Positions 11,063 through 19,491 of a stretch of DNA of 20,251 bases are shown here, piece after piece. Both the position numbers and the translations under genes were made by a program. Each line of letters begins with the position of its first letter. The first letter of the stretch is position 1. The stretch lies in the IMG/VR virus record IMGVR_UViG_3300042924_004570, positions 1 through 20,251 of that record, one strand, 5' to 3'. The notes under the pieces were generated by a model. The model searched no databases, was not told where the DNA came from, and was given only the letters and a program-made list of their open reading frames with translations. Source of the stretch: a virus.

Positions 11063-11093
11063 CTAATATAAGGAAAAAAACAATGGGAAACAA
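11063..11093 (-). promoter_or_regulatory. Promoter of Bacteroidota type before uvsE
   Basis: Reading the minus strand, TTG (11093-11091) is followed by exactly 20 bases and then TATATTAG (11070-11063), five of six defined positions of TAnnTTTG. Transcription would start near 11056 and give a leader of about 20 bases before the uvsE ATG. The TTG lies inside the right-hand arm of the preceding terminator hairpin, so terminator and promoter share bases. Confidence 0.6.
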
Positions 11094-11113
11094 GAAAAAT
11101 CTTGTCTCCCATT
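11074..11113 (-). terminator. Hairpin terminator after the adhesin-like gene
   Basis: On the minus strand, AATGGGAGACAAG (11113-11101) and CTTGTTTCCCATT (11094-11082) form a 13-base stem with one mismatch around a six-base loop. A run of seven T follows after one G (11080-11074). It lies 24 bases downstream of the 11137-11772 gene and isolates it from the uvsE unit. Confidence 0.82.
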
Positions 11114-11136
11114 CAATTATTTTTATGTGTTATATC

Positions 11137-11772
11137 TTATCCCCAGTTTTCACTCGGACGGAATCCATTACTTCCAGTCCATGAACCAGAAAGTATAAGA
11201 CGGATTGAAAGACCCATTGTTTTTGGTGTATTTATTGAAATTGCAGATCTGTTAGACCAGTACAACTTATAAGCTATAGCATCACTTACAGATGCAGTTG
11301 TATTTGACCACCAGTTGCCACTCCAAGTCAAATCAAAAAACTCACCGTCAACAGTTTGGAATCCACCAGGGTTTCCTTTCCAACCAGAGGCATTGGAACC
11401 ATTTCCAGATATACGATTCAAAGTTCCCCAGTTTTCTGTATTTTTTAGTGGATGTCCTGCTGCTCGTGTACCACCCAAATAAGTTATGAGTGTGTTATAA
11501 TCAGAAGATGCCGGTACTTTGAACTGTGGATTCTCTACAATCGGATGGGCGGTTATTGATGCACTAACAACATACCAATTGTATAATTTTCCGTATGTAT
11601 CAGCATTACTCGAATCATCATTATAATATCTCCAAGCCGGTGTACCTGCTGTACAATAGTCTATCCATTGTTGAGAAGATGATGCCTGAGCAATAGATAC
11701 TCCATCACCAAAAGCATCAACGTCAAGATTTTGGTCGTCCCAAGTTTGTGTTCCAATAGTTACCAGTGCCAT
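11137..11772 (-). CDS. Fibrobacter succinogenes major paralogous domain protein, putative fibre or adhesin
   Basis: The 211-residue product carries the pattern of this domain (FISUMP, PF09603): an opening VTIGTQTWDDQNLDV, then AWRYYNDD, YGKLYNWYVV, VPASSDYNTLITYLGG, GWKGNPGGF and a closing MGLSIRLI. The domain is common in surface proteins of Bacteroidota and Fibrobacterota and occurs in phage tail or fibre genes. It covers nearly the whole protein; there is no signal peptide, so it is more likely a virion part than a secreted protein. An Ile/Leu-rich region is absent and the protein is rich in Trp, Asn, Ser and Gly. The gene stands alone between two terminators. GGAG lies 7 bases before the ATG. 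Receptor binding or host range is inferred only. Confidence 0.82.
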   Translation of the reverse strand: MALVTIGTQTWDDQNLDVDAFGDGVSIAQASSSQQWIDYCTAGTPAWRYYNDDSSNADTYGKLYNWYVVSASITAHPIVENPQFKVPASSDYNTLITYLGGTRAAGHPLKNTENWGTLNRISGNGSNASGWKGNPGGFQTVDGEFFDLTWSGNWWSNTTASVSDAIAYKLYWSNRSAISINTPKTMGLSIRLILSGSWTGSNGFRPSENWG

Positions 11773-11821
11773 TTAGTATCTCCATCTACTTCATAATAAA
11801 ATCATTCATTTCTACTATAAA

Positions 11822-11860
11822 TATAAAGTAAAATGGAAAACCATATTCTGATTTCCCATT
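11822..11860 (-). terminator. Hairpin terminator after the 11895-12287 gene
   Basis: On the minus strand, AATGGGAAA (11860-11852) pairs with TTTTCCATT (11840-11832) through nine pairs, one of them G-U, around an 11-base loop. A T-rich tail TTACTTTATATTTAT follows. It shares the AATGGGA arm with the terminator at 11074-11113. Function is inferred from structure and position. Confidence 0.6.
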
Positions 11861-11894
11861 ATAACTTATATCAAATGAAGTTTATCATTAGATT

Positions 11895-12287
11895 TTATTG
11901 TTGTTTCTTTGGCTTTTTACCCCTACCATCGTCATTCTTTTTTGGTGTGGATTTTTGAGAAGGTTGGTTATTATTCACATTACCACTCTTCTTTGGCCTG
12001 TTAGAATACCGTTTCTTTTTCTTTTCAGGATTAGGACTTGAAGTAACTGTTGTTGAAGTAACCGTCGTTGAACCGTGCCATCCATCATTTGCATCGAAAT
12101 TCTTGACTGATTCAATCACTATTTCTGATTCAGATGGTGTTGACAAGTGTCCACGGAAACTGTTGATGACTGCATTCTTGTCTTCAAGAGTTTCAGTCAA
12201 TGAATTGATTTGTCTACGATTGTAGAACCAAAATCCCACACCAGCAACAACTGCGGTAATAAGGACTATAAGTAAAGTAAGGGACAT
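11895..12287 (-). CDS. Single-pass membrane protein with basic tail
   Basis: The 130-residue product starts MSLTLLIVLITAVVAGVGFW, one N-terminal membrane helix, then FYNRRQINSLTETLEDKNAV, a short coiled coil. The last 50 residues are Lys/Pro/Asn/Ser-rich and disordered (for example PEKKKKRYSNRPKKSG). By the positive-inside rule the basic tail would face the cytoplasm. Function unknown. AAGGAAGAGG directly before TTATG is a strong ribosome site. It is the last gene before the terminator at 11822-11860. Confidence 0.75.
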   Translation of the reverse strand: MSLTLLIVLITAVVAGVGFWFYNRRQINSLTETLEDKNAVINSFRGHLSTPSESEIVIESVKNFDANDGWHGSTTVTSTTVTSSPNPEKKKKRYSNRPKKSGNVNNNQPSQKSTPKKNDDGRGKKPKKQQ

Positions 12288-12299
12288 AACCTCTTCCTT

Positions 12300-12845
12300 T
12301 TATTGTTTGAAAATACAAAAAACATAATTACCATCACCAAATTTTTTTACGGTGAATTTATCATAACTATTTACAAATTCCGTAAAAAGATAATTATCAT
12401 AATATCGAAGTGTTTCTGACTCGGTTATTCTTATAGTAAAAATAACACCTTTTCTAGAGTATTCGAGTGAATTTTGTACAACCTCGTTTATAAAACTGAA
12501 CTGATTGTTTTCATAAATTCCCGAATCAAATAGACCTGTTATTACAGTCCAGTCTGCATCATTGTCTTCAGAATCAATATACTCTTGAAGTGAACCTTCG
12601 AAATAAGAAACAGATTCTGTTTTGAATTTTTTTGATAACGATTTTATTCTTTTCTTATTAGGTTCGACTGCGGTTATGAGTTCATTACCAAGTGTACCGT
12701 TATAATCCAAAAGAGTTTCCAAAAACTTTCCTTCTTGATGACCAGCTCCAAAATTTACAACAGTATCATCTTCAAGAATTCCACAATTTACAATCTCATC
12801 AAAGATTGTTATTTCTTCTACATTAGTCATTGTTGTAATATCCAT
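12300..12845 (-). CDS. SAM-dependent methyltransferase-like protein
   Basis: The 181-residue product has the order of motifs of class I methyltransferases: DDTVVNFGAGHQEGK (27-40) as motif I, ITAVEPNKKRI (57-67) with acidic Glu61 that would hold the SAM ribose, ADWTVITGLFDSG (97-109) in the motif IV position, and RKGVIFTIRI (131-140) as the following strand. I see no NPPY or DPPY, so a DNA amino-methyltransferase of the usual type is unlikely. The substrate is unknown. Start choice is uncertain: ATGs at 12896, 12845 and 12830 are in frame. The first overlaps the upstream gene by 74 bases; I took 12845, which has TGGA 5 bases before it. Confidence 0.68.
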   Translation of the reverse strand: MDITTMTNVEEITIFDEIVNCGILEDDTVVNFGAGHQEGKFLETLLDYNGTLGNELITAVEPNKKRIKSLSKKFKTESVSYFEGSLQEYIDSEDNDADWTVITGLFDSGIYENNQFSFINEVVQNSLEYSRKGVIFTIRITESETLRYYDNYLFTEFVNSYDKFTVKKFGDGNYVFCIFKQ

Positions 12846-13134
12846 AAAAATCCATTGTCTTTTTTCTTCTACGATTGATACGTTTTTTTGTATCATTTGA
12901 TGAATAAAATTCAGTTCTCATTGGATGTGTTCTATTGAAATTTTGTGTCATCTTCAAACTCAAGTCAGCCATTTCCCATGCCTTTTGTGGGTCTTTGGTT
13001 GGAGGAAGTAGATGTTCTTCCGATAGATTCACTCCATTTACGTCAATATACAAATTTTTTTCGGAATCAAAAAGCATTTTTGCATTCGGTACTTTTTTTA
13101 GTACGCGTTTCATAATTTTTTCTGTTTCAGTCAT
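12823..13134 (-). CDS. Small unknown protein with basic C-terminus
   Basis: The 103-residue product is not recognised. It begins MTETEKIMKRVLKKVPNAKM, has LYIDVNGVNLSEEHLLPPTK and DPQKAWEMADLSLKMTQNF in the middle, and NDTKKRINRRRKKTMDF near the end; the Arg/Lys cluster may bind nucleic acid. Its ATG overlaps the stop of the preceding gene by four bases, and its 3' end runs into the methyltransferase-like gene. It belongs to the thyX operon by spacing. Confidence 0.65.
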   Translation of the reverse strand: MTETEKIMKRVLKKVPNAKMLFDSEKNLYIDVNGVNLSEEHLLPPTKDPQKAWEMADLSLKMTQNFNRTHPMRTEFYSSNDTKKRINRRRKKTMDFYGYYNND

Positions 13135-13376
13135 AACGATTTTTTCTCTCTTATTACTTTATGATATTTGTTTCTAACGGTTATTATATTATTTTGAATT
13201 ACTTGACATTTTTCAAATTCATCTTTTTCAAGAAAGTAGATATACATATCATACAATTCGTCTAGCTTTTGAAAGTCAGTCATTGAAGTCATCTCAATGA
13301 AATAGTTGGGATTTTCTTCTAACATTTCCCAATTGAAGTTTAGGGACTCTTCGTAAAACTTCTTCACGTCCCCCAT
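13131..13376 (-). CDS. Small protein with UVR-like helical motif
   Basis: The 81-residue product is acidic and helical. Residues 49-64 (LEKDEFEKCQVIQNNI) fit the pattern of the UVR motif of UvrB and UvrC, where a conserved E-F/Y-E is followed by hydrophobic and Arg/Gln positions and Ile; this motif mediates helix-pair contacts. A similar motif is in the protein at 14264-14626. Function unknown. It overlaps thyX by 13 bases, with GAGG seven bases before its ATG inside the thyX end, and shares an ATGA with the next gene. Confidence 0.65.
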   Translation of the reverse strand: MGDVKKFYEESLNFNWEMLEENPNYFIEMTSMTDFQKLDELYDMYIYFLEKDEFEKCQVIQNNIITVRNKYHKVIREKKSL

Positions 13377-14020
13377 CCGATTGCCTCAGAAATACTTGGG
13401 AAGTTCTGTGTGAAGATGTCTCGAATACCATTCGCAATATCTCGGTGTTCTTTCTGTGTGTCTTCGAGTGTACGGAGTTCAAGATAGTGAATCCAAGAAC
13501 GAAGTGAACCCTTCATATACATTGTTGTTTCTGTTGCAAGTGGAAGTACATCACGAGCAACTTCACGAGCGATACCAGCTTGAATCATCTCGTTGTAAAG
13601 ATTTAGGGATGCTTGAAAGTGACCAGATACAATATCCGATAACTTTACACCACCAACCCATTCAGGATTGTAAGCTTCCGCAGATGATTGACGATTCTTC
13701 TCTGCTTGTTTACGAAGTTCAATATCTTGAACAGATGTTGCAGAAGAATATCGTTGTGAAAATTCTTGGAATGAGAATGACTTGTGACGAAGAATTTGTG
13801 CGGCAATCGAACGTCTTGTTACAATTTCCACAGTCATATCAACAAACTCAAACGGAGACCAATGTTTGTGTTTGATGAGATAATTGATAAGACGTGGAGA
13901 TGTTTCTACATTCATCTGATTTGATGGATTAGATACACGAGCGATGTAAACAACAAACTCTTCAGGTGTCATCTGCTTCTCAAGAGATGGATGTGTAATT
14001 GAAACTAATTTGACTGACAT
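13364..14020 (-). CDS. thyX: Flavin-dependent thymidylate synthase
   Basis: The 218-residue product is ThyX, which makes dTMP from dUMP using FAD, NADPH and methylene-tetrahydrofolate, without the DHFR that ThyA needs. The ThyX signature appears at 78-91 as RHKSFSFQEFSQRY, where most members have RHR followed by S, E, S and R; the third residue is Lys here. ELRKQAEKNRQSS (101-113), and PLATETTMYMKGSLRSWIHY then LELRTLEDTQKEHRDIA (160-196), match the dUMP and FAD contact regions. The length is normal. The ATG follows the stop of the 64-residue gene directly, with GAGG just upstream. It would supply thymidine for phage DNA synthesis. Confidence 0.95.
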   Translation of the reverse strand: MSVKLVSITHPSLEKQMTPEEFVVYIARVSNPSNQMNVETSPRLINYLIKHKHWSPFEFVDMTVEIVTRRSIAAQILRHKSFSFQEFSQRYSSATSVQDIELRKQAEKNRQSSAEAYNPEWVGGVKLSDIVSGHFQASLNLYNEMIQAGIAREVARDVLPLATETTMYMKGSLRSWIHYLELRTLEDTQKEHRDIANGIRDIFTQNFPSISEAIGWGT

Positions 14021-14215
14021 TTATTCCTCGCCTTCTTCAAATTCCATTTCAATGACGTCATCATCTTCTTGAATTTGGAATTGATTTAGATTGATTTTGT
14101 TTTGTTTCCGACCTTTGTTTCGGTCGTAAGAATCTAACTTCTTTTCTTTGAACATTTCATATCCGTCTTCAAATCGTTCGGATTTCTTTGTCTTGTGTCT
14201 GTAATCTCGTCCCAT
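14021..14215 (-). CDS. Small, highly charged protein
   Basis: The 64-residue product begins MGRDYRHKTKKSERFEDGYE and is basic up to about residue 40, then acidic (EDDDVIEMEFEEGEE). No family is recognised. It is the first gene after the internal promoter at 14248-14278 and abuts thyX with no gap, so the pair is probably co-expressed. The ATG lacks a Shine-Dalgarno sequence and has an AT-rich leader of about 25 bases, which fits initiation in Bacteroidota. Confidence 0.62.
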   Translation of the reverse strand: MGRDYRHKTKKSERFEDGYEMFKEKKLDSYDRNKGRKQNKINLNQFQIQEDDDVIEMEFEEGEE

Positions 14216-14247
14216 AAATCTATATGTTGTGAATAATTGTGAATAGA

Positions 14248-14278
14248 ATAAACTACGAAAAAATTATGTAATTTCCAA
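14248..14278 (-). promoter_or_regulatory. Internal promoter of the thyX operon
   Basis: On the minus strand TTG (14278-14276) is followed by exactly 20 bases and TAGTTTAT (14255-14248), four of six defined positions of TAnnTTTG. The segment TTTTTTCGTAG before and within the box is shared with the promoter at 19461-19491. It overlaps the stop codon of the 14264-14626 gene. Confidence 0.5.
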
Positions 14279-14626
14279 ATTATATTTTTCAATCTGTTGT
14301 TTTATTACCGCGAGTCTTTCGTATTTTTCTGCCGCAAGTAATCTCTCAACATACGAACTAAATATCTTTTGGAAGTTGTCTTTGCGAATCATAACATCTA
14401 TTTGAGAACCACCTTCAACTCTTATGGTGGCAACTATAATTGCATTTATTTCATTCTCTAAACAGTCCACCATTGCATCGTAAACTTTATCAGATAATGT
14501 AAAGTTTACCTTGTCATCTGTTACCCAAGATAACATTTCTGCATTACTTCTAAAGTCTAAATTCTGATGTTTTATCCACACAGGAATATTATCAGATTTA
14601 GTGGTGTAGGAGTCGTTTCTTGACAT
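14264..14626 (-). CDS. Unknown protein with UVR-like motif at the C-terminus
   Basis: The 120-residue product is not recognised as a whole. The middle (about 35-80) is a likely beta domain with VNFTLSDKVYDAMVDCLENE and INAIIVATIRVEGGSQIDVM. Residues 97-112 (LLAAEKYERLAVIKQQ and the next I) fit the UVR-type pattern also seen at 13131-13376. The ATG lies 29 bases inside the preceding gene; no better start is available before residue 31. The stop codon is within the promoter for the thyX group. Confidence 0.62.
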   Translation of the reverse strand: MSRNDSYTTKSDNIPVWIKHQNLDFRSNAEMLSWVTDDKVNFTLSDKVYDAMVDCLENEINAIIVATIRVEGGSQIDVMIRKDNFQKIFSSYVERLLAAEKYERLAVIKQQIEKYNLEIT

Positions 14627-14876
14627 AGCTTGAAATGGTTTCGTAATAATCTTTTTTATATGGTTCTTTTTTTATGGCGTTGTTCATGTAGTCATCAATC
14701 ATAGATTCCGTGAGAGAGTTGTCTCCCGTTATATGTTGTTCTTCTATAATTCGTTCTGTTTCCATTATTGCATCGTTTACATGAAATTCATCGTAGTCAG
14801 AGTATTCTATATTGAAATCTCTCAAAATTTCTTCGAGGTTGAATAACCATTCGATATAGTTACTTCTTTCGTCCAC
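14598..14876 (-). CDS. Small acidic unknown protein, GTG start
   Basis: The 92-residue product begins with GTG (VDERSNYIEWLFNLEEILRD read as Met first) and is rich in Glu, Asp and Tyr. It ends KKDYYETISSYVKKRLLHH. No family is recognised. The GTG at 14876 overlaps the upstream gene by 17 bases and lies just after AAGAGAG; the next in-frame Met is residue 38, which would lose most of the N-terminal helix. It runs 29 bases into the following gene. Confidence 0.58.
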   Translation of the reverse strand: MDERSNYIEWLFNLEEILRDFNIEYSDYDEFHVNDAIMETERIIEEQHITGDNSLTESMIDDYMNNAIKKEPYKKDYYETISSYVKKRLLHH

Positions 14877-15354
14877 CTCTCTTCTTCTTTATTTTTTCAA
14901 GTCGAATGTGGGTGATATTTGCACCCTCTTCACTAATTACAACTTTGTGGTCGGCAGAATAAAGTAAGTCAGAAACCCATGTAATAAATTTTTCTATTTC
15001 TGGATTGACATTCATAAACCCAAAATTTTGCATTTCTGAGTTATCAAGTGGATGTCTAAATTTAGAAAGAGAATTCATATCTAATGGGAAAGATGTATTG
15101 TCATCCAATTCTTCATCTTTTTTTAGATTCTTGAAAAACGGGTCATCATTTTCTTCTGGATTGTCCAATTTATCCTTCAGTTTATCTCTTACTTTTTTCA
15201 GAATATCTTGAACCGCATATACATCGTAATTACGATTGAATGTGTCCAAGAAATTCTTTTGGTCTTTCTTGGTCATCTTTTCGTCCTTTACGGGTAACAT
15301 ATCAATCCCGTAATAGTTCAGCATAGATTTCAATTGTTTTTCACGATTTGTCAT
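14860..15354 (-). CDS. Unknown helical protein with basic C-terminus
   Basis: The 164-residue product begins MTNREKQLKSMLNYYGIDML, has DTFNRNYDVYAVQDILKKVR and a charged middle, then NPEIEKFITWVSDLLYSADH, and ends KIKKKRGGRKK. No family is recognised; the Lys/Arg tail suggests contact with nucleic acid. I chose the ATG at 15354, with GAGAG six bases upstream, over one at 15390, which would start within the end of the glycosyltransferase gene. A TATTTATA motif lies about 20 bases before the start. Confidence 0.65.
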   Translation of the reverse strand: MTNREKQLKSMLNYYGIDMLPVKDEKMTKKDQKNFLDTFNRNYDVYAVQDILKKVRDKLKDKLDNPEENDDPFFKNLKKDEELDDNTSFPLDMNSLSKFRHPLDNSEMQNFGFMNVNPEIEKFITWVSDLLYSADHKVVISEEGANITHIRLEKIKKKRGGRKK

Positions 15355-15386
15355 TTTATCTCTCGTTTGTTTATTATAAATAGTGT

Positions 15387-16208
15387 TCAAATATTTTGTA
15401 AATACAGAGAAGCTTCTCTCATTTCATCTTTATCTTTTATACCATGATAAAAGAATGTATTTTCGGTGTTCTCTACTTTTTCCCAATTTAAACCAAGTAA
15501 ATCATTTATACCACCTACAAAATTTCCAGCGGTTATACCTTCTTCTATTGATTTTATTGTTGATAACAAATGTGTATTTAGAAAAGCATATCCGAGATTT
15601 TTAGTTGCCCCTCGTTTCCAAAGACAGATATTGAATGGTGTTTCATCGGTAAAAGGAAAGAATTTTTTCTTTCTATCTAACAGATATTTGTTACAACAAA
15701 TTGAATACCATTCTTCTATAAAATCTCTGCAATTTTCGTTGAATGAAAAAAGACATGAGAAAACATATCTTTGGGTTCTATCAGGAACATTGAGATACTT
15801 CATCAATTCTGCCTCGGAATACTCGACGTATTTTCCATCTATGTGTTCCCAAGAGAAAAGATATTCATGTGGTCCGAAACTTGCAACAGGATATGATTCG
15901 GTATGTTTTAGATTTTCTGTTATAAGTCTTTTTGAGAATAGAACGTCGGTATCAGTAAAAACATAGTCTTCATTTGGAAATATATCCATTACCTTTAAAC
16001 AAATTTCTGGCTTGTAAAAATTGAAAGCAGGATATGTTGAGTTCTTCTCTATTCTTACTTTATGTAAGTTTCTAAACTCTAAATGGGAATCAAATCCAAC
16101 GGTAAAATAAACAATCTTTGTTTCCGTTGGTGTTCGTTTTTCTAATGTTCTAATGCAATTTTCAGCTTGATATTCGTAATTTTTATCGCTGTATAGGAAG
16201 AAAACCAT
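15387..16208 (-). CDS. Glycosyltransferase-like protein with DxD motif
   Basis: The 273-residue product looks like a GT-A fold glycosyltransferase. The first strand MVFFLYSDKNYEYQAENCIR and the metal/nucleotide-sugar motif DYVFTDTDVLFSKRL (DTD at 86-88) are in the usual places. GNFVGGINDLLGL (229-240) and FFYHGIKDK (252-260, His255) may close the metal site. No membrane segment is visible. Substrate unknown. Phage enzymes of this kind modify DNA bases, host surface sugars or phage proteins; nothing here singles one out. It starts with AAGAAG just before the ATG and is preceded by the small membrane gene. Confidence 0.75.
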   Translation of the reverse strand: MVFFLYSDKNYEYQAENCIRTLEKRTPTETKIVYFTVGFDSHLEFRNLHKVRIEKNSTYPAFNFYKPEICLKVMDIFPNEDYVFTDTDVLFSKRLITENLKHTESYPVASFGPHEYLFSWEHIDGKYVEYSEAELMKYLNVPDRTQRYVFSCLFSFNENCRDFIEEWYSICCNKYLLDRKKKFFPFTDETPFNICLWKRGATKNLGYAFLNTHLLSTIKSIEEGITAGNFVGGINDLLGLNWEKVENTENTFFYHGIKDKDEMREASLYLQNI

Positions 16209-16234
16209 TTTACTTCTTTTGTAAGTTTACTTTG

Positions 16235-16474
16235 TTATTTTCGTTTCAATGTTTCTAGAACTTCGGCGTATTCGTAATAACCTTCTTGAATTTTTATGAG
16301 GGAGTATTCTTTTAGATTTTTTCTCAGTCTATATGAATCTACATGACAATGTTCGGCAATTCTAACAATAGATTCTTTTTCAGGACACGTAGAACTTTGT
16401 TTCGATAACAAATCTTCTTTCGTCAGAATCCAATAACTAAAAAATCCAATAAGAAAAGTAACTATAAATTCCAC
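16235..16474 (-). CDS. Small membrane protein with helix-turn-helix-like tail
   Basis: The 79-residue product begins MEFIVTFLIGFFSYWILTKE with one membrane helix (about 2-18). The cytoplasmic part IVRIAEHCHVDSYRLRKNLK, then EYSLIKIQEGYYEYAEVL, resembles a helix-turn-helix plus wing. I took the GTG at 16474, preceded by GGGGG at 8 bases; the frame stays open to a TTG at 16510. The opening resembles that of the gene at 7204-7527. A membrane-tethered DNA-binding protein is possible, but the fold is a guess. Confidence 0.58.
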   Translation of the reverse strand: MEFIVTFLIGFFSYWILTKEDLLSKQSSTCPEKESIVRIAEHCHVDSYRLRKNLKEYSLIKIQEGYYEYAEVLETLKRK

Positions 16475-16523
16475 TTGTATTACCCCCGTTTGAAGTAAAT
16501 TGATTATCAATAAATATCACTCA

Positions 16524-16609
16524 TAAAAAATAAAAAGGGATAGAAGAACTAATTTGGTCGGTATATGTTGATGATGTTCTCATCACTCTATACAACGTTC
16601 TTCTATCCC
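16524..16609 (-). terminator. Large hairpin terminator after the transglycosylase gene
   Basis: An outer stem of 13 perfect pairs (16597-16609 with 16537-16549, arm GGGATAGAAGAAC on the plus strand) encloses a second stem of five pairs (16589-16593 with 16561-16565) and an inner stem TGATGA/TCATCA with a five-base loop. On the minus strand the outer stem is followed at once by TTTTTATTTTTTATG, a good U-tract. It starts eight bases after the stop codon of the transglycosylase gene. Confidence 0.85.
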
Positions 16610-16616
16610 CCAGTTT

Positions 16617-17105
16617 TTACATCTTTGCTAGATTACGTTCTTCTAGCTCCAAGTTTACCCTCTTTGACACTTTCTTCCAATACTTCTTTGTAGCACGTTT
16701 CATGTGTCCCTTTGGACCTCCATTCCACTTTCTCGCGAGGGTCGCCATGTCCTCTTTTGAAAGTGAATCTAAATTAAGGTCAGGGTTATAAAACTCCTGA
16801 TAAATCCAAAACATCTCCGCAGATTTGCGGGGATTCTTTCGGTCAGCAAGAGTGAACTTCTTATCAAGTCCTTGAATCTTACAGATTCGGTTTACTTCCT
16901 TGACCATAACAGGTTTGATTTGGACAATTCCAACAGACCCGTCTCTTGATTTTGCGTTTGCATTGCCTTTCGACTCAACCCAAACGATAGATGAATACAA
17001 CACGTCTTTTAGAACCTCACCCTTTGAGAAGGGTTTCATTGCGATTGTCACGAAGGCAGTCACAATGATTGAGACGGTTGCAACCCGTTTCCATTTGTTA
17101 GTCAT
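16617..17105 (-). CDS. Lysozyme-like lytic transglycosylase, probable endolysin
   Basis: The 162-residue product has an SLT/goose-type lysozyme-like domain. SSIVWVESKGNANAKSRDGS (38-57) places the catalytic Glu44, followed by VGIVQIKPVMVKEVNRI (58-74), LADRKNPRKSAEMFWIYQEF (86-105) and MATLARKWNGGPKGH (120-134). These are the ES-GN, G-Q-KP and A-WNGG positions of that family, which cuts the glycan strand of peptidoglycan. Residues 8-23 (VATVSIIVTAFVTIAM) form an N-terminal membrane segment, either a signal peptide or a signal-arrest-release anchor. It has its own promoter at 17221-17251, a leader of about 110 bases, AAGAGAGAG before the ATG and a strong terminator. Endolysin is inferred; a virion-bound role is the alternative. 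Confidence 0.82.
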   Translation of the reverse strand: MTNKWKRVATVSIIVTAFVTIAMKPFSKGEVLKDVLYSSIVWVESKGNANAKSRDGSVGIVQIKPVMVKEVNRICKIQGLDKKFTLADRKNPRKSAEMFWIYQEFYNPDLNLDSLSKEDMATLARKWNGGPKGHMKRATKKYWKKVSKRVNLELEERNLAKM

Positions 17106-17146
17106 ATCAACTCTCTCTTTTGTGGATAATATATGTTTTCATTCTT

Positions 17147-17192
17147 TGTGTCTAAAGACACAGGTGTATTACAACAACATTATACCGACCAA
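17147..17192 (-). promoter_or_regulatory. Structured leader of the transglycosylase transcript
   Basis: The leader holds TTGGTCGGTATA (17192-17181, minus strand), exactly complementary to 16554-16565 inside the terminator loop of the same transcript, and a hairpin TGTGTC/GACACA with a four-base loop (17162-17147). GGTATAAT also contains a -10-like TATAAT, without a matching -35 at 17 bases. A regulatory role is inferred. Confidence 0.45.
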
Positions 17193-17220
17193 GTATAAAT
17201 ATCAGTTGTTTTTGTTATTA

Positions 17221-17251
17221 CAATAATAAGAAATTTTTGGGACAATTCCAA
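17221..17251 (-). promoter_or_regulatory. Promoter of the transglycosylase gene
   Basis: On the minus strand TTG (17251-17249) is followed by exactly 20 bases and TATTATTG (17228-17221), five of six defined positions of TAnnTTTG. The upstream part TTGGAATTGTC is identical to that of the promoter at 19461-19491. It starts nine bases after the end of the preceding gene. Confidence 0.6.
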
Positions 17252-17259
17252 ATGATTTT

Positions 17260-17523
17260 TTAGCAGAGGCCGCCGTTGTCCCCAAGTTCAAATTCAGTAC
17301 CCTCGTATGTTTCACGAGATTCAGTAGGTACGACCTCTACATCATGAAACTCTGCGTCTTTTGCAGAAATACAACAATACCACTTACCGTCTTTGTTACG
17401 AAGTAATGTATCTGTTCCAAGATTATGATGGATTTGTGTAGCAGATTCTTGTGAAGTATTTTCATTCAGTATTCTTCTAACCAGATATACTTTATCTTCT
17501 GTTCTAATTATATTATTTATCAT
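17260..17523 (-). CDS. Small unknown protein, probably early
   Basis: The 87-residue product begins MINNIIRTEDKVYLVRRILN, continues with a likely beta domain containing RNKDGKWYCCISAKDAEFHD, and ends with an acidic tail and a C-terminal Cys. No family is recognised. It is the first and perhaps only gene under the promoter at 17641-17671, and AAAGG lies nine bases before the ATG. The heavy regulatory sequence upstream suggests controlled, perhaps immediate, expression. Confidence 0.62.
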   Translation of the reverse strand: MINNIIRTEDKVYLVRRILNENTSQESATQIHHNLGTDTLLRNKDGKWYCCISAKDAEFHDVEVVPTESRETYEGTEFELGDNGGLC

Positions 17524-17613
17524 ACTACATAACCTTTATATTACAGTTATACTATTACTTCTATTATTACTATTACTACTATAATAACTATAATAGATTA
17601 ACTCTTTTTTTAA

Positions 17614-17639
17614 GTGTTCACTCTTTTCCCGTGTTCACT
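17614..17639. repeat. Two direct copies of GTGTTCACT near the transcription start
   Basis: GTGTTCACT occurs at 17614-17622 and 17631-17639, 17 bases apart. Each has the dyad GTG-TT-CAC. A third, partial copy (AAGTGTT) lies at 17670-17676. They straddle the expected start site of the promoter at 17641-17671, a usual place for a repressor site, or they arose by local duplication. Confidence 0.55.
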
Positions 17640-17640
17640 G

Positions 17641-17671
17641 TAAAGATACAAAATAAATCAATACGAGTCAA
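17641..17671 (-). promoter_or_regulatory. Promoter of the 17260-17523 gene
   Basis: On the minus strand TTG (17671-17669) is followed by exactly 20 bases and TATCTTTA (17648-17641), five of six defined positions of TAnnTTTG. The same bases can also be read as TTGACT, 17 bases, TATCTT, an ordinary sigma-70 promoter. It lies in the gene-free block and has operator-like repeats on both sides. Confidence 0.65.
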
Positions 17672-17687
17672 GTGTTATTTTACATAC

Positions 17688-17704
17688 TGTCAAAATTATT
17701 GACA
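17688..17704. promoter_or_regulatory. Palindrome TGTCAA-N5-TTGACA
   Basis: A perfect inverted repeat with six-base arms and a five-base AT spacer lies 16 bases upstream of the TTG of the promoter at 17641-17671. It could bind a dimeric activator or repressor. No binding protein can be named. Confidence 0.45.
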
Positions 17705-17788
17705 TTTTGTAAATAGGCATCTTCAGATTCCGTAGGAATAAAAAGTGGTCATTTTAACACCTATAAACACCCCGTTTTTGACCCCCAC

Positions 17789-17813
17789 CGTCCCCGTAGG
17801 GACGTTTTTATTT
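17789..17813 (+). terminator. Plus-strand hairpin with T-tract
   Basis: CGTCCC and GGGACG (17789-17794, 17799-17804) form a perfect stem around CGTA, followed directly by TTTTTATTT on the plus strand. On the minus strand the loop becomes TACG, closed by C-G, a very stable tetraloop, but no T-tract follows. It is thus oriented against every gene in the window and would end a plus-strand RNA. The surrounding 424 bases hold no gene. Confidence 0.55.
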
Positions 17814-17879
17814 GATAACCCATATACGACTATACCCTGACCAATAAAACCCTCTTAAAAACGATTTAAACCCCGTATT

Positions 17880-17924
17880 TAAGTCCTTAAAAATAAAGGA
17901 CTTACGCCGATGACGTAAGTCCTT
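17880..17924 (-). terminator. Terminator with an alternative overlapping hairpin
   Basis: On the minus strand AAGGACTTACG (17924-17914) and CGTAAGTCCTT (17906-17896) form 11 perfect pairs around a seven-base loop, followed by TATTTTT. The second arm can instead pair with AAGGACTTA (17888-17880), giving nine pairs around the T-rich loop. It lies 24 bases after the stop of the 17948-18364 gene. Confidence 0.72.
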
Positions 17925-17947
17925 ATAAATCAACTACTTACGAGAAA

Positions 17948-18364
17948 TCAGTCGTTTCCACTCATTAGAACGTCAGGACGTTGGATATAGTCGATGTTCA
18001 ATTCATCAGACCATAAAATTTGTTTTTCATCCCATGAGATAACAAACTCTGGCACCATGCAACCGTATCGTTGATAGTATGTTTCATATTCATCGAATGA
18101 TTCATAGATGTCAAATTTATCATCGAAGACAGGAATGTCACCCACAGTTTCGGCAAGATTCGATTCCACTTCACCAAAGGTATTGAAGTATGAACCTTGT
18201 TCGTCACCTTCTTCTGTATTTTCAAAAATCCAATTCAGAATATCGTCACGAGTTTCTTCAACTGCAGAAAATGTTGATTCCACTTCTTCAAGATTTGAAG
18301 ACTGAGTAACGTCTTTCCATTGTTCGGAAAATCGTTCGAGTAGTTGTTTGAAATTATTGTTCAT
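17948..18364 (-). CDS. Strongly acidic unknown protein
   Basis: The 138-residue product has 34 Asp or Glu against 8 Lys or Arg by my count. Aromatic residues are frequent (for example FDEYETYYQRYG). It begins MNNNFKQLLERFSEQWKDVT. No family is recognised. Such charge is typical of DNA mimics that block restriction enzymes or other DNA-binding proteins, but composition alone does not prove it. I took the ATG at 18364, inside the end of the preceding gene (ATGAACAATAA), since a start at 18421 would bury 19 residues in that gene. It is the last gene of its unit. Confidence 0.68.
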   Translation of the reverse strand: MNNNFKQLLERFSEQWKDVTQSSNLEEVESTFSAVEETRDDILNWIFENTEEGDEQGSYFNTFGEVESNLAETVGDIPVFDDKFDIYESFDEYETYYQRYGCMVPEFVISWDEKQILWSDELNIDYIQRPDVLMSGND

Positions 18365-18560
18365 TGATATAGTCCACAATCTTTGATTCTGAAATAGTCT
18401 TGACCTCAAATGGGTCAACACACGTAGATAGATACTTGTTCACTTGAACTTCTGCATCTGTTACAGACACGGCATCAACCATGTATGAACGAGATTGCTT
18501 CTTCACCTTACCATTATCAGCGGTGATTTCAAATTGAACCTTTGCGAGATAGAAAGCCAT
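18354..18560 (-). CDS. DUF4494-like small protein
   Basis: The 68-residue product reads as a short member of the DUF4494 family: a beta start AFYLAKVQFEITADNGKVKK, then RSYMVDAVSVTDAEVQVNKY, and VDPFEVKTISESKIVDYI. The pattern of Y-VDA-S-TDAE is the core of that family, known mainly from Bacteroidota and their phages; the role is unknown. This is from memory of the family, not a search. AAGGA lies seven bases before the ATG. It is two bases from the upstream gene and overlaps the acidic protein gene by 11. Confidence 0.65.
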   Translation of the reverse strand: MAFYLAKVQFEITADNGKVKKQSRSYMVDAVSVTDAEVQVNKYLSTCVDPFEVKTISESKIVDYINEQ

Positions 18561-18562
18561 AA

Positions 18563-18820
18563 CTAATCCTTCTTTTTATAGATATTTGATAAATACTTTG
18601 CGTTTATTTGATTTGTTCCAATAAGAGAATGAAGTGGGAAATATCCTTTCGGTGTACCGACCATATCATTCTTCGTGCCAATATACAAACTTTCTCCGTC
18701 TTCCACAAGATAAATCGGTATGAAGTTTATCTGTAAATCGTTGTAGTCGTCGTTGTAACGAGCGAACGTCTTTTTACCGATAGTAAACTGATTAGTCTTG
18801 TTGGAAGTTGGCATAGTCAT
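18563..18820 (-). CDS. Small unknown protein
   Basis: The 85-residue product begins MTMPTSNKTNQFTIGKKTFA and has INFIPIYLVEDGESLYIGTK and GYFPLHSLIGTNQINAKYL, a likely small beta fold. No family is recognised. The start is chosen at 18820 for AAGG four bases upstream; ATGs at 18835 and 18814 are alternatives, and the open frame reaches 18907 within the preceding gene. It overlaps that gene by 29 bases. Confidence 0.6.
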   Translation of the reverse strand: MTMPTSNKTNQFTIGKKTFARYNDDYNDLQINFIPIYLVEDGESLYIGTKNDMVGTPKGYFPLHSLIGTNQINAKYLSNIYKKKD

Positions 18821-19157
18821 TGAACCTTGATTCATAAAGTGGTGCCATTGCAACATATACTTCCCAAAGTTGTTCAAGGAAGAACTCGTTTGCGTTGTAC
18901 GGTTCAAATGTACCGTCGTTGTTCCAATCGTCAGAACTTACTACCGCCATGAGAAATACATCCCTACCCTTCGTCTCCAATCCGTACACTTCAACGTCCT
19001 CGATTACTACAATCGGCTTCGGTGTACCTTCGTCGTCGTATGTATAATACTCACCACCTGCCTTATTGATAAGGGTATTCATACGAATAATTACTTGTTC
19101 CTTCAACGTCTTTGGTGTTACTACAATAGACGTGATGTGTGATGATGATTGACTCAT
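18792..19157 (-). CDS. Unknown acidic protein
   Basis: The 121-residue product begins MSQSSSHITSIVVTPKTLKE and has EYYTYDDEGTPKPIVVIEDV, VFLMAVVSSDDWNNDGTFEP and a C-terminal helix with WEVYVAMAPLYESRFNDYAN. No family, signal or membrane segment is recognised. GGAG lies eight bases before the ATG. It overlaps the preceding gene by four bases. Base composition here (18600-20200) is visibly richer in GC and CG steps than in the structural genes. Confidence 0.65.
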   Translation of the reverse strand: MSQSSSHITSIVVTPKTLKEQVIIRMNTLINKAGGEYYTYDDEGTPKPIVVIEDVEVYGLETKGRDVFLMAVVSSDDWNNDGTFEPYNANEFFLEQLWEVYVAMAPLYESRFNDYANFQQD

Positions 19158-19438
19158 CGGTTTACTCCAATAAAAATGTTGTAAATAAAAAAGAAAACTG
19201 GTATCATTGCGAGGACGAAGAATAATGTATCTCGTAACATCTGTTTCTTGTTTTCGAGACCTATAATTCGGTTATGGACTGCGAGAGAATTACAAAGTTC
19301 ATCCTTTGTGATTGACTTACCGAACGTCGTGTAAGCATTTGGGTCGGCGAGAAAAACTCTTTCTACACCTTCCCGTGATGGTGTCCGTGACCAATTGAAT
19401 GGTTCTACTTTTCGGACTTTCTTCATTGTGTTACCCAT
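19154..19438 (-). CDS. Small protein with C-terminal membrane anchor
   Basis: The 94-residue product has a soluble basic N-terminal part (MGNTMKKVRKVEPFNWSRTP, then VERVFLADPNAYTTFGKSIT) and one hydrophobic helix near the end (about 70-90, DTLFFVLAMIPVFFFIYNIF). It is probably anchored with the N-terminus in the cytoplasm. No family is recognised. It is the first gene after the promoter at 19461-19491; the leader has no Shine-Dalgarno sequence. An ATG at 19426 is a possible alternative start. Confidence 0.62.
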   Translation of the reverse strand: MGNTMKKVRKVEPFNWSRTPSREGVERVFLADPNAYTTFGKSITKDELCNSLAVHNRIIGLENKKQMLRDTLFFVLAMIPVFFFIYNIFIGVNR

Positions 19439-19460
19439 AAGGTTGTTGATTGATGTAATA

Positions 19461-19491
19461 CAAATCTACGAAAAAAATCTGACAATTCCAA
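19461..19491 (-). promoter_or_regulatory. Promoter before the 19154-19438 gene
   Basis: On the minus strand TTG (19491-19489) is followed by exactly 20 bases and TAGATTTG (19468-19461), a perfect TAnnTTTG. It begins three bases after the lipoprotein stop codon. It is the best match of the five promoters of this form in the window. Confidence 0.72.

Follow-up and report, generated by a model that had tools for sequence, protein, structure and literature searches.

Promoters read by the primary sigma factor of Bacteroidota follow a consensus of TTTG at -33 and TAnnTTTG at -7 (PMC6847099, PMC7366714, PMC9723704); in F. johnsoniae there is hardly any -33 motif, and G is virtually absent from the third position of the -7 box (PMC6847099). 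Late promoters of phage T4 consist of one box (TATAAATA), read by the phage sigma factor gp55 without a -35 element and located close upstream of virion genes. Here we analyze a stretch of viral DNA of 20,251 nucleotides (nt), positions 1 to 20,251 of IMG/VR virus record IMGVR_UViG_3300042924_004570 and hereafter the window, in which five sites of the form TTG-N20-TAnnTTTG (class 1) are best read as promoters recognized by the primary sigma factor of a Bacteroidota host. The window is very probably part of a T4-like myovirus with a Bacteroidota, probably flavobacterial, host and with a two-stage promoter programme adapted to that host. In the first stage, host RNA polymerase, unmodified or lightly modified, would use its primary sigma factor (sigma-ABfr/sigma-A) to read class 1 sites before early and replication genes, and the five window sites would belong here. 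In the second, a gp55-like sigma factor of the phage would direct the same polymerase to YATATTTAT (class 2), a box of the -7 type with no -33 element, before virion genes. The assignment of a sigma factor to each box and the timing of the two stages are inferred. Promoter grammar of this kind may predict the host phylum of an uncultured phage and, with no need of RNA data, tell early genes from virion genes.

Class 1 sites in the window and in related phages

The five 31-mers, each TTG followed by 20 and then 8 bases, were found exactly where the first-pass annotation had placed them (Table 1), on the minus strand that carries almost all window genes. As it had noted, TTGGAA is common to three of the sites and TTTTTTCGTAG to two, a sharing that no good hairpin explains. 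Its statement that all sit in or beside gene gaps holds for four sites, which lie within a gap or extend across one (14248 runs into the final codons of the preceding gene), and for 11063 if uvdE starts at ATG 11031, the start suggested by relatives. TTG stands at exactly 20 bases in all five by definition; a perfect TAnnTTTG box occurs at 19461 only, and the other four depart from it at one or two positions.

As the pattern had been chosen after the sequence was viewed, it was tested on other phages first and then on the window. The 243-residue sigma-like protein of the window, used as a query, retrieved 80 IMG/VR loci, of which three belong to large records examined in pieces (G001, 177 kb; G002, 137 kb; G003, 77 kb). 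Genes were called by a simple longest-open-reading-frame rule, which is bound to misplace some gaps and starts, and counts in gaps are given as gene strand/opposite strand/shuffled. The loci yielded 94 gaps after dereplication, in which TTG-N20-TAnnTTTG was counted 6/0/0.15 times and other spacings gave no peak; the counts were 13/1/0.3 in G001-G003 (7/1/0.3 at a spacing of 19) and 16/3/0.2 in a cultured relative, Microcystis phage Mel-JY01 (53% identity for the sigma-like protein and 76% for the portal). The second cultured relative, Flavobacterium phage immuto (43% and 51%; both portal comparisons used G001 as query), infects Flavobacterium sp. LMO8, and in it the looser TTG-N20-TAnnTT[TG] gave 27/4/0.35 with a peak at a spacing of 20. 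The motif, its strand, its spacing and its distance to start codons are plain observations in independent phages. The T4 control contained no N20 site and, as expected, its own TATAAATA (10/6/0.9); neither the class 1 nor the class 2 motif was found in RM378, a second control with a proven host that differs in GC content and host.

A matrix trained solely on other phages (33 sites, with no 20-mer in common with the window) ranked the five sites 1, 2, 3, 6 and 8 of 40,416 positions. The best was 19461, which with 17221 is strong, and 11063 and 17641 are weaker. Scores of at least 8 were reached by seven minus-strand hits and one plus-strand hit in the window vs 0.6 in shuffles; the two of these minus-strand hits that are not among the five sites, 18708 (inside a 114-residue frame at 18563-18907) and 8746, lie within coding sequence. 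The first-pass annotation had named a lack of enrichment upstream of genes as a refuting outcome; in relatives the motif is enriched there. E. coli-type promoters showed no enrichment in the window, with 34 found vs 37.4 expected.

Conservation could be followed for four sites, since the gene after 19461 had no match among relatives. The uvdE promoter is kept in orthologues down to ~71% protein identity with a spacing of 20, or 19 in a sister group. At 14248, TTGG..N20..TA is present in relatives L014, L022, L030 and L033; at 17221, the -7 region and flank are conserved in L014 and L022; and 17641 is identical in L014, with its downstream part retained in L022 and L030. Directly after the 17641 promoter, at 17605-17640 (minus strand), stands CAGTGAACACGGGAAAAGAGTGAACAC, which is conserved in L014, L022 and L030 and occurs as a variant in L069.

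Class 1 sites resemble the primary-sigma promoters of B. fragilis, B. thetaiotaomicron and Flavobacterium in their -7 box, a TTG near -33, an AT-rich spacer and short leaders (box-to-start mode ~30 nt). They differ from them in a spacing fixed at 20 (19 in the sister group), in a clear -33 TTG and in being sometimes fused to a terminator. The -7 consensus in G001-G003 and Mel-JY01 is TATATTTG, the host consensus, and TAnnTTTG is threefold enriched in the gaps of a Flavobacteriaceae genome bin (108 vs 33 shuffled). Genes after class 1 sites, in the selected set scanned, include those for clamp loader, single-strand binding protein, primase, UvdE and an anti-restriction protein.

Two arrangements in relatives deserve mention. 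At 60.9-77 kb of immuto (L106, 10900-27000), about 20 near-identical class 1 promoters of the form TTG-N20-TAnnTTTAGGTATCAATAATTA precede small genes, and many of them are partly built from terminator hairpins. Before the primase gene (L096, L103), an inverted repeat, CTTGTAATTGTCACAAA .. TTTGTGACAAG, possibly an operator, spans the class 1 promoter in G003 and is similar in G002.

Class 2 boxes and a gp55-like sigma factor

The second motif, which the first-pass annotation missed, is YATATTTAT, lying without a -33 partner 30-48 nt before virion genes. In the gaps of G001-G003, ATATTTAT was counted 61/4/7 times, with a start-codon distance mode of 33-35 nt, and around phage bS21 genes it occurs 322 times forward vs 14 times reverse in 893 kb of contigs that were not dereplicated; it has no strand bias in the gaps of the Flavobacteriaceae bin (14/14/9). 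Genes after class 2 boxes, again in the selected set scanned, include those for portal, tail tube, baseplate, tape measure and fibre proteins; the motif, its strand and its distance to start codons are likewise observed directly, as is the division of gene classes between the two motifs. In the window, a box precedes the Fib_succ_major-domain gene; all 14 distinct relatives listed have one too, at a distance of 35-47 nt to the start codon, and one of them has a second at 69 nt.

A single -10-type box without a -35 element close before virion genes is the arrangement of T4 late promoters, and, like T4, this phage combines a gp55-like sigma factor with T4-type virion genes. We propose that class 2 boxes may be late promoters read by the gp55-like sigma factor. 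The best BFVD structure match of this protein is significant (E 2.7e-4) and carries no name; a PDB sequence search with the sigma profile returned no meaningful match, and a PHROG scan of the family gave weak matches only, including 'late sigma transcription factor' at E 0.5. Unlike the T4 box, YATATTTAT resembles the host -7 box TATATTTG apart from the last G, which is changed, and TATAAATA is depleted on the gene strand. TATAAATA itself was rejected as a late box, with 1 occurrence on the gene strand vs 23 on the opposite one. No description of a T4-type late box for Bacteroidota phages was found in the literature searched, and the present analysis supplies a candidate.

Table 1. Predicted promoters, class 2 boxes, terminators and sigma factor gene in the window
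Feature	Position	Strand	Sequence	Matrix score	Remarks
Class 1 promoter (predicted), uvdE (start 11031)	11063..11093	-	TTGTTTCCCATTGTTTTTTTCCTTATATTAG; TTG-N20-TATATTAG	10.2	
Class 1 promoter (predicted), 64-residue gene 14021-14215	14248..14278	-	TTGGAAATTACATAATTTTTTCGTAGTTTAT; TTG-N20-TAGTTTAT	14.0	
Class 1 promoter (predicted), SLT transglycosylase gene 16617-17105	17221..17251	-	TTGGAATTGTCCCAAAAATTTCTTATTATTG; TTG-N20-TATTATTG	24.6	~110-nt leader
Class 1 promoter (predicted), gene 17260-17523	17641..17671	-	TTGACTCGTATTGATTTATTTTGTATCTTTA; TTG-N20-TATCTTTA	8.6	~110-nt leader
Class 1 promoter (predicted), gene 19154-19438	19461..19491	-	TTGGAATTGTCAGATTTTTTTCGTAGATTTG; TTG-N20-TAGATTTG	34.5	perfect match
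Class 2 box, SLT transglycosylase leader	17195..17202	-	ATATTTAT		kept in L014, L022, L030
Class 2 box, Fib_succ_major-domain gene 11137-11772	11817..11824	-	TATATTTATA		
Class 2 box, small membrane protein gene	16510..16517	-	ATATTTAT		34 nt before GTG start 16475 (inferred), after GGGGG
gp55-like sigma factor gene (putative), 243 residues	6473..7204	-			homology to T4 gp55 not conclusive (sigma-like fold, N-terminal match)
Intrinsic terminator	11082..11113	-	AATGGGAGACAAG-ATTTTT-CTTGTTTCCCATT-GTTTTTTT		dG -21.0 kcal/mol
Intrinsic terminator, just upstream of class 2 box 11817-11824	11832..11860	-			dG -11.4

Shine-Dalgarno sites and phage bS21

Many clear Shine-Dalgarno sites had been taken in the first-pass annotation as a mild argument against a Bacteroidota host. 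The sites are real, occurring before 11/29 window genes, seven of them within the 1-8.6 kb block, and a GGAG/GAGG peak at -10/-11 is present in G001, G002 and Mel-JY01 and absent from immuto and the Flavobacteriaceae bin. In Mel-JY01 they favor structural blocks (16/60 vs 14/166 elsewhere, p 0.0008). The observation was a fair one, but Shine-Dalgarno sites do not refute a Bacteroidota host; they are found in relatives whose phage bS21 has Lys or Arg at position 54, a link that had been overlooked. bS21 is encoded by G001-G003 and Mel-JY01; no bS21 gene was found in immuto, and the window itself has none.

Residue Tyr54 of the F. johnsoniae bS21 contributes to concealing the anti-Shine-Dalgarno tail; when it is replaced (Y54A), translation of strong Shine-Dalgarno reporters increases up to threefold (PMC9976891). 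All of 47 bS21 phages described earlier have an aromatic residue at position 54 (PMC9723584). The phages studied here resemble those bS21-encoding Bacteroidetes phages, which are T4-like freshwater myoviruses that encode bS21 next to virion genes and whose predicted hosts are Bacteroidetes, but differ in using Shine-Dalgarno sites and in residue 54, which is Lys or Arg in 76/76 loci related to the Mel-JY01/G001-G003 bS21 in a phage-bS21 search. Position 54 was located by its distance from the conserved KPS, with a MAFFT alignment as a check, and the spurious locus L256, a helicase, was left out. Lys/Arg54 loci have a Shine-Dalgarno site in 192/595 unique start regions, vs 1/107 where the residue is Tyr or His (21 loci); each set is a clade of its own, which confounds the residue with ancestry and host lineage. 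Lys/Arg54 (L155-L234) also goes with ATATTTAT boxes, and Tyr/His54 (L235-L255) with neither feature. A scan of genome contigs with phage bS21 gave no relative.

These counts point to Shine-Dalgarno use that tracks an unusual phage bS21, and not another host phylum. We speculate, with some doubt, that this phage clade might switch the host ribosome, Lys/Arg54 bS21 freeing the anti-Shine-Dalgarno tail of 16S rRNA, which Bacteroidota ribosomes conceal in part by means of Tyr54, while virion genes carry the Shine-Dalgarno sites that host genes lack. If so, early promoters of host type, a late box of the phage's own and the ribosome switch would amount to a coupled takeover of transcription and translation. 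The role of phage bS21 lends itself to a simple test, in that Lys/Arg54 should go with Shine-Dalgarno use and Tyr54 should not.

Host, polymerase and terminators

The claim that a Bacteroidota sigma factor reads the window sites is supported by host evidence that is strong for the relatives: by immuto, which infects Flavobacterium and has the same TTG-N20 arrangement, and by five genome bins with relatives of the sigma-like gene, of which two are Flavobacteriaceae, one is Bacteroidetes and two are named only 'bacterium', binning of phage contigs being weak host evidence taken alone. The DUF4494 and Fib_succ_major genes of the window also count toward a Bacteroidota host, and among 14 control genomes DUF4494 matches occurred only in Bacteroides.

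Several observations weigh against the two-stage reading. Position 3 of the box is G in 14248 and 19461, the class 1 box of immuto is TAnnTTTA and not TTTG, and the Flavobacteriaceae bin has no -33 TTG at a fixed distance. Mel-JY01 (PP395634.1; L108-L111) is recorded as a phage of Microcystis elabens, the one contrary host record. As for gp55, hhalign aligned the first 100 residues in register with it at only E 0.001 and 21% probability, and the best PDB fold matches, mostly sigma factors, are not significant (above E 0.1). The likeness to the Bacteroidota -33/-7 form drawn in the first-pass annotation stands for the -7 box, the TTG and the motif enrichment; the strict N20 is a phage trait and not what the host generally shows, since -33 spacing is diffuse in the Flavobacteriaceae bin.

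A spacing so much stricter than in the bin could mean that class 1 sites are real promoters read by a phage-modified polymerase or with an activator, as T4 middle promoters are, and not by plain sigma-A holoenzyme. The near-identical sites of the immuto array, which continue as TTTAGGTATCAATAATTA, would fit this; yet the array precedes many small genes that resemble early ones, at a stage at which the cell would contain only host polymerase, and the host consensus at -7 in G001-G003 and Mel-JY01 also speaks for the unmodified enzyme, leaving a modified polymerase unlikely. A host outside Bacteroidota, whether a cyanobacterium, as in the Mel-JY01 record, or a member of another phylum that uses Shine-Dalgarno sites, which are common in this phage group, is very unlikely given the host of the cultured relative, the Bacteroidota identity of the named bins, and Mel-JY01 itself, which has 16 TTG-N20-TAnnTTTG sites vs 0.2 expected and an S21 gene. 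Microcystis cultures often contain other bacteria. The host entry of Mel-JY01 deserves a recheck, its promoters being of the Bacteroidota type despite the Microcystis label.

The conserved blocks might also be mainly terminators, their likeness to promoters a by-product of hairpin and T tract. The uvdE promoter at 11063 is indeed fused to a terminator, an overlap missed in the first-pass annotation, with its TTG within the 3' arm and the T tract within the promoter spacer, and in immuto a hairpin with T tract accompanies 12/35 class 1 sites (1-2 by chance) and 5/7 class 2 sites (0-2 by chance over both classes). The combination is rarer in G001-G003 (3/36 class 1, 8/53 class 2) and absent from the class 1 sites of Mel-JY01 (0/24), the other four window sites have no hairpin of note, and the spacing between TTG and TAnnTTTG stays fixed where there is no hairpin, which makes this explanation extremely improbable. 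Reading by the host primary sigma factor accounts best for the class 1 sites.

Rfam and tRNA scans of the window found nothing, and a megablast search of its right half against phages gave no match. The window encodes gp25-type and gp6-like baseplate proteins, Clp protease, UvdE, ThyX, the Fib_succ_major protein and a DUF4494 protein. The SLT transglycosylase gene is flanked by inverted copies of TTGGTCGGTATA at 16554-16567 and 17181-17193, and relatives with as little as 57% protein identity share its leader, including GGTCGGTATA.

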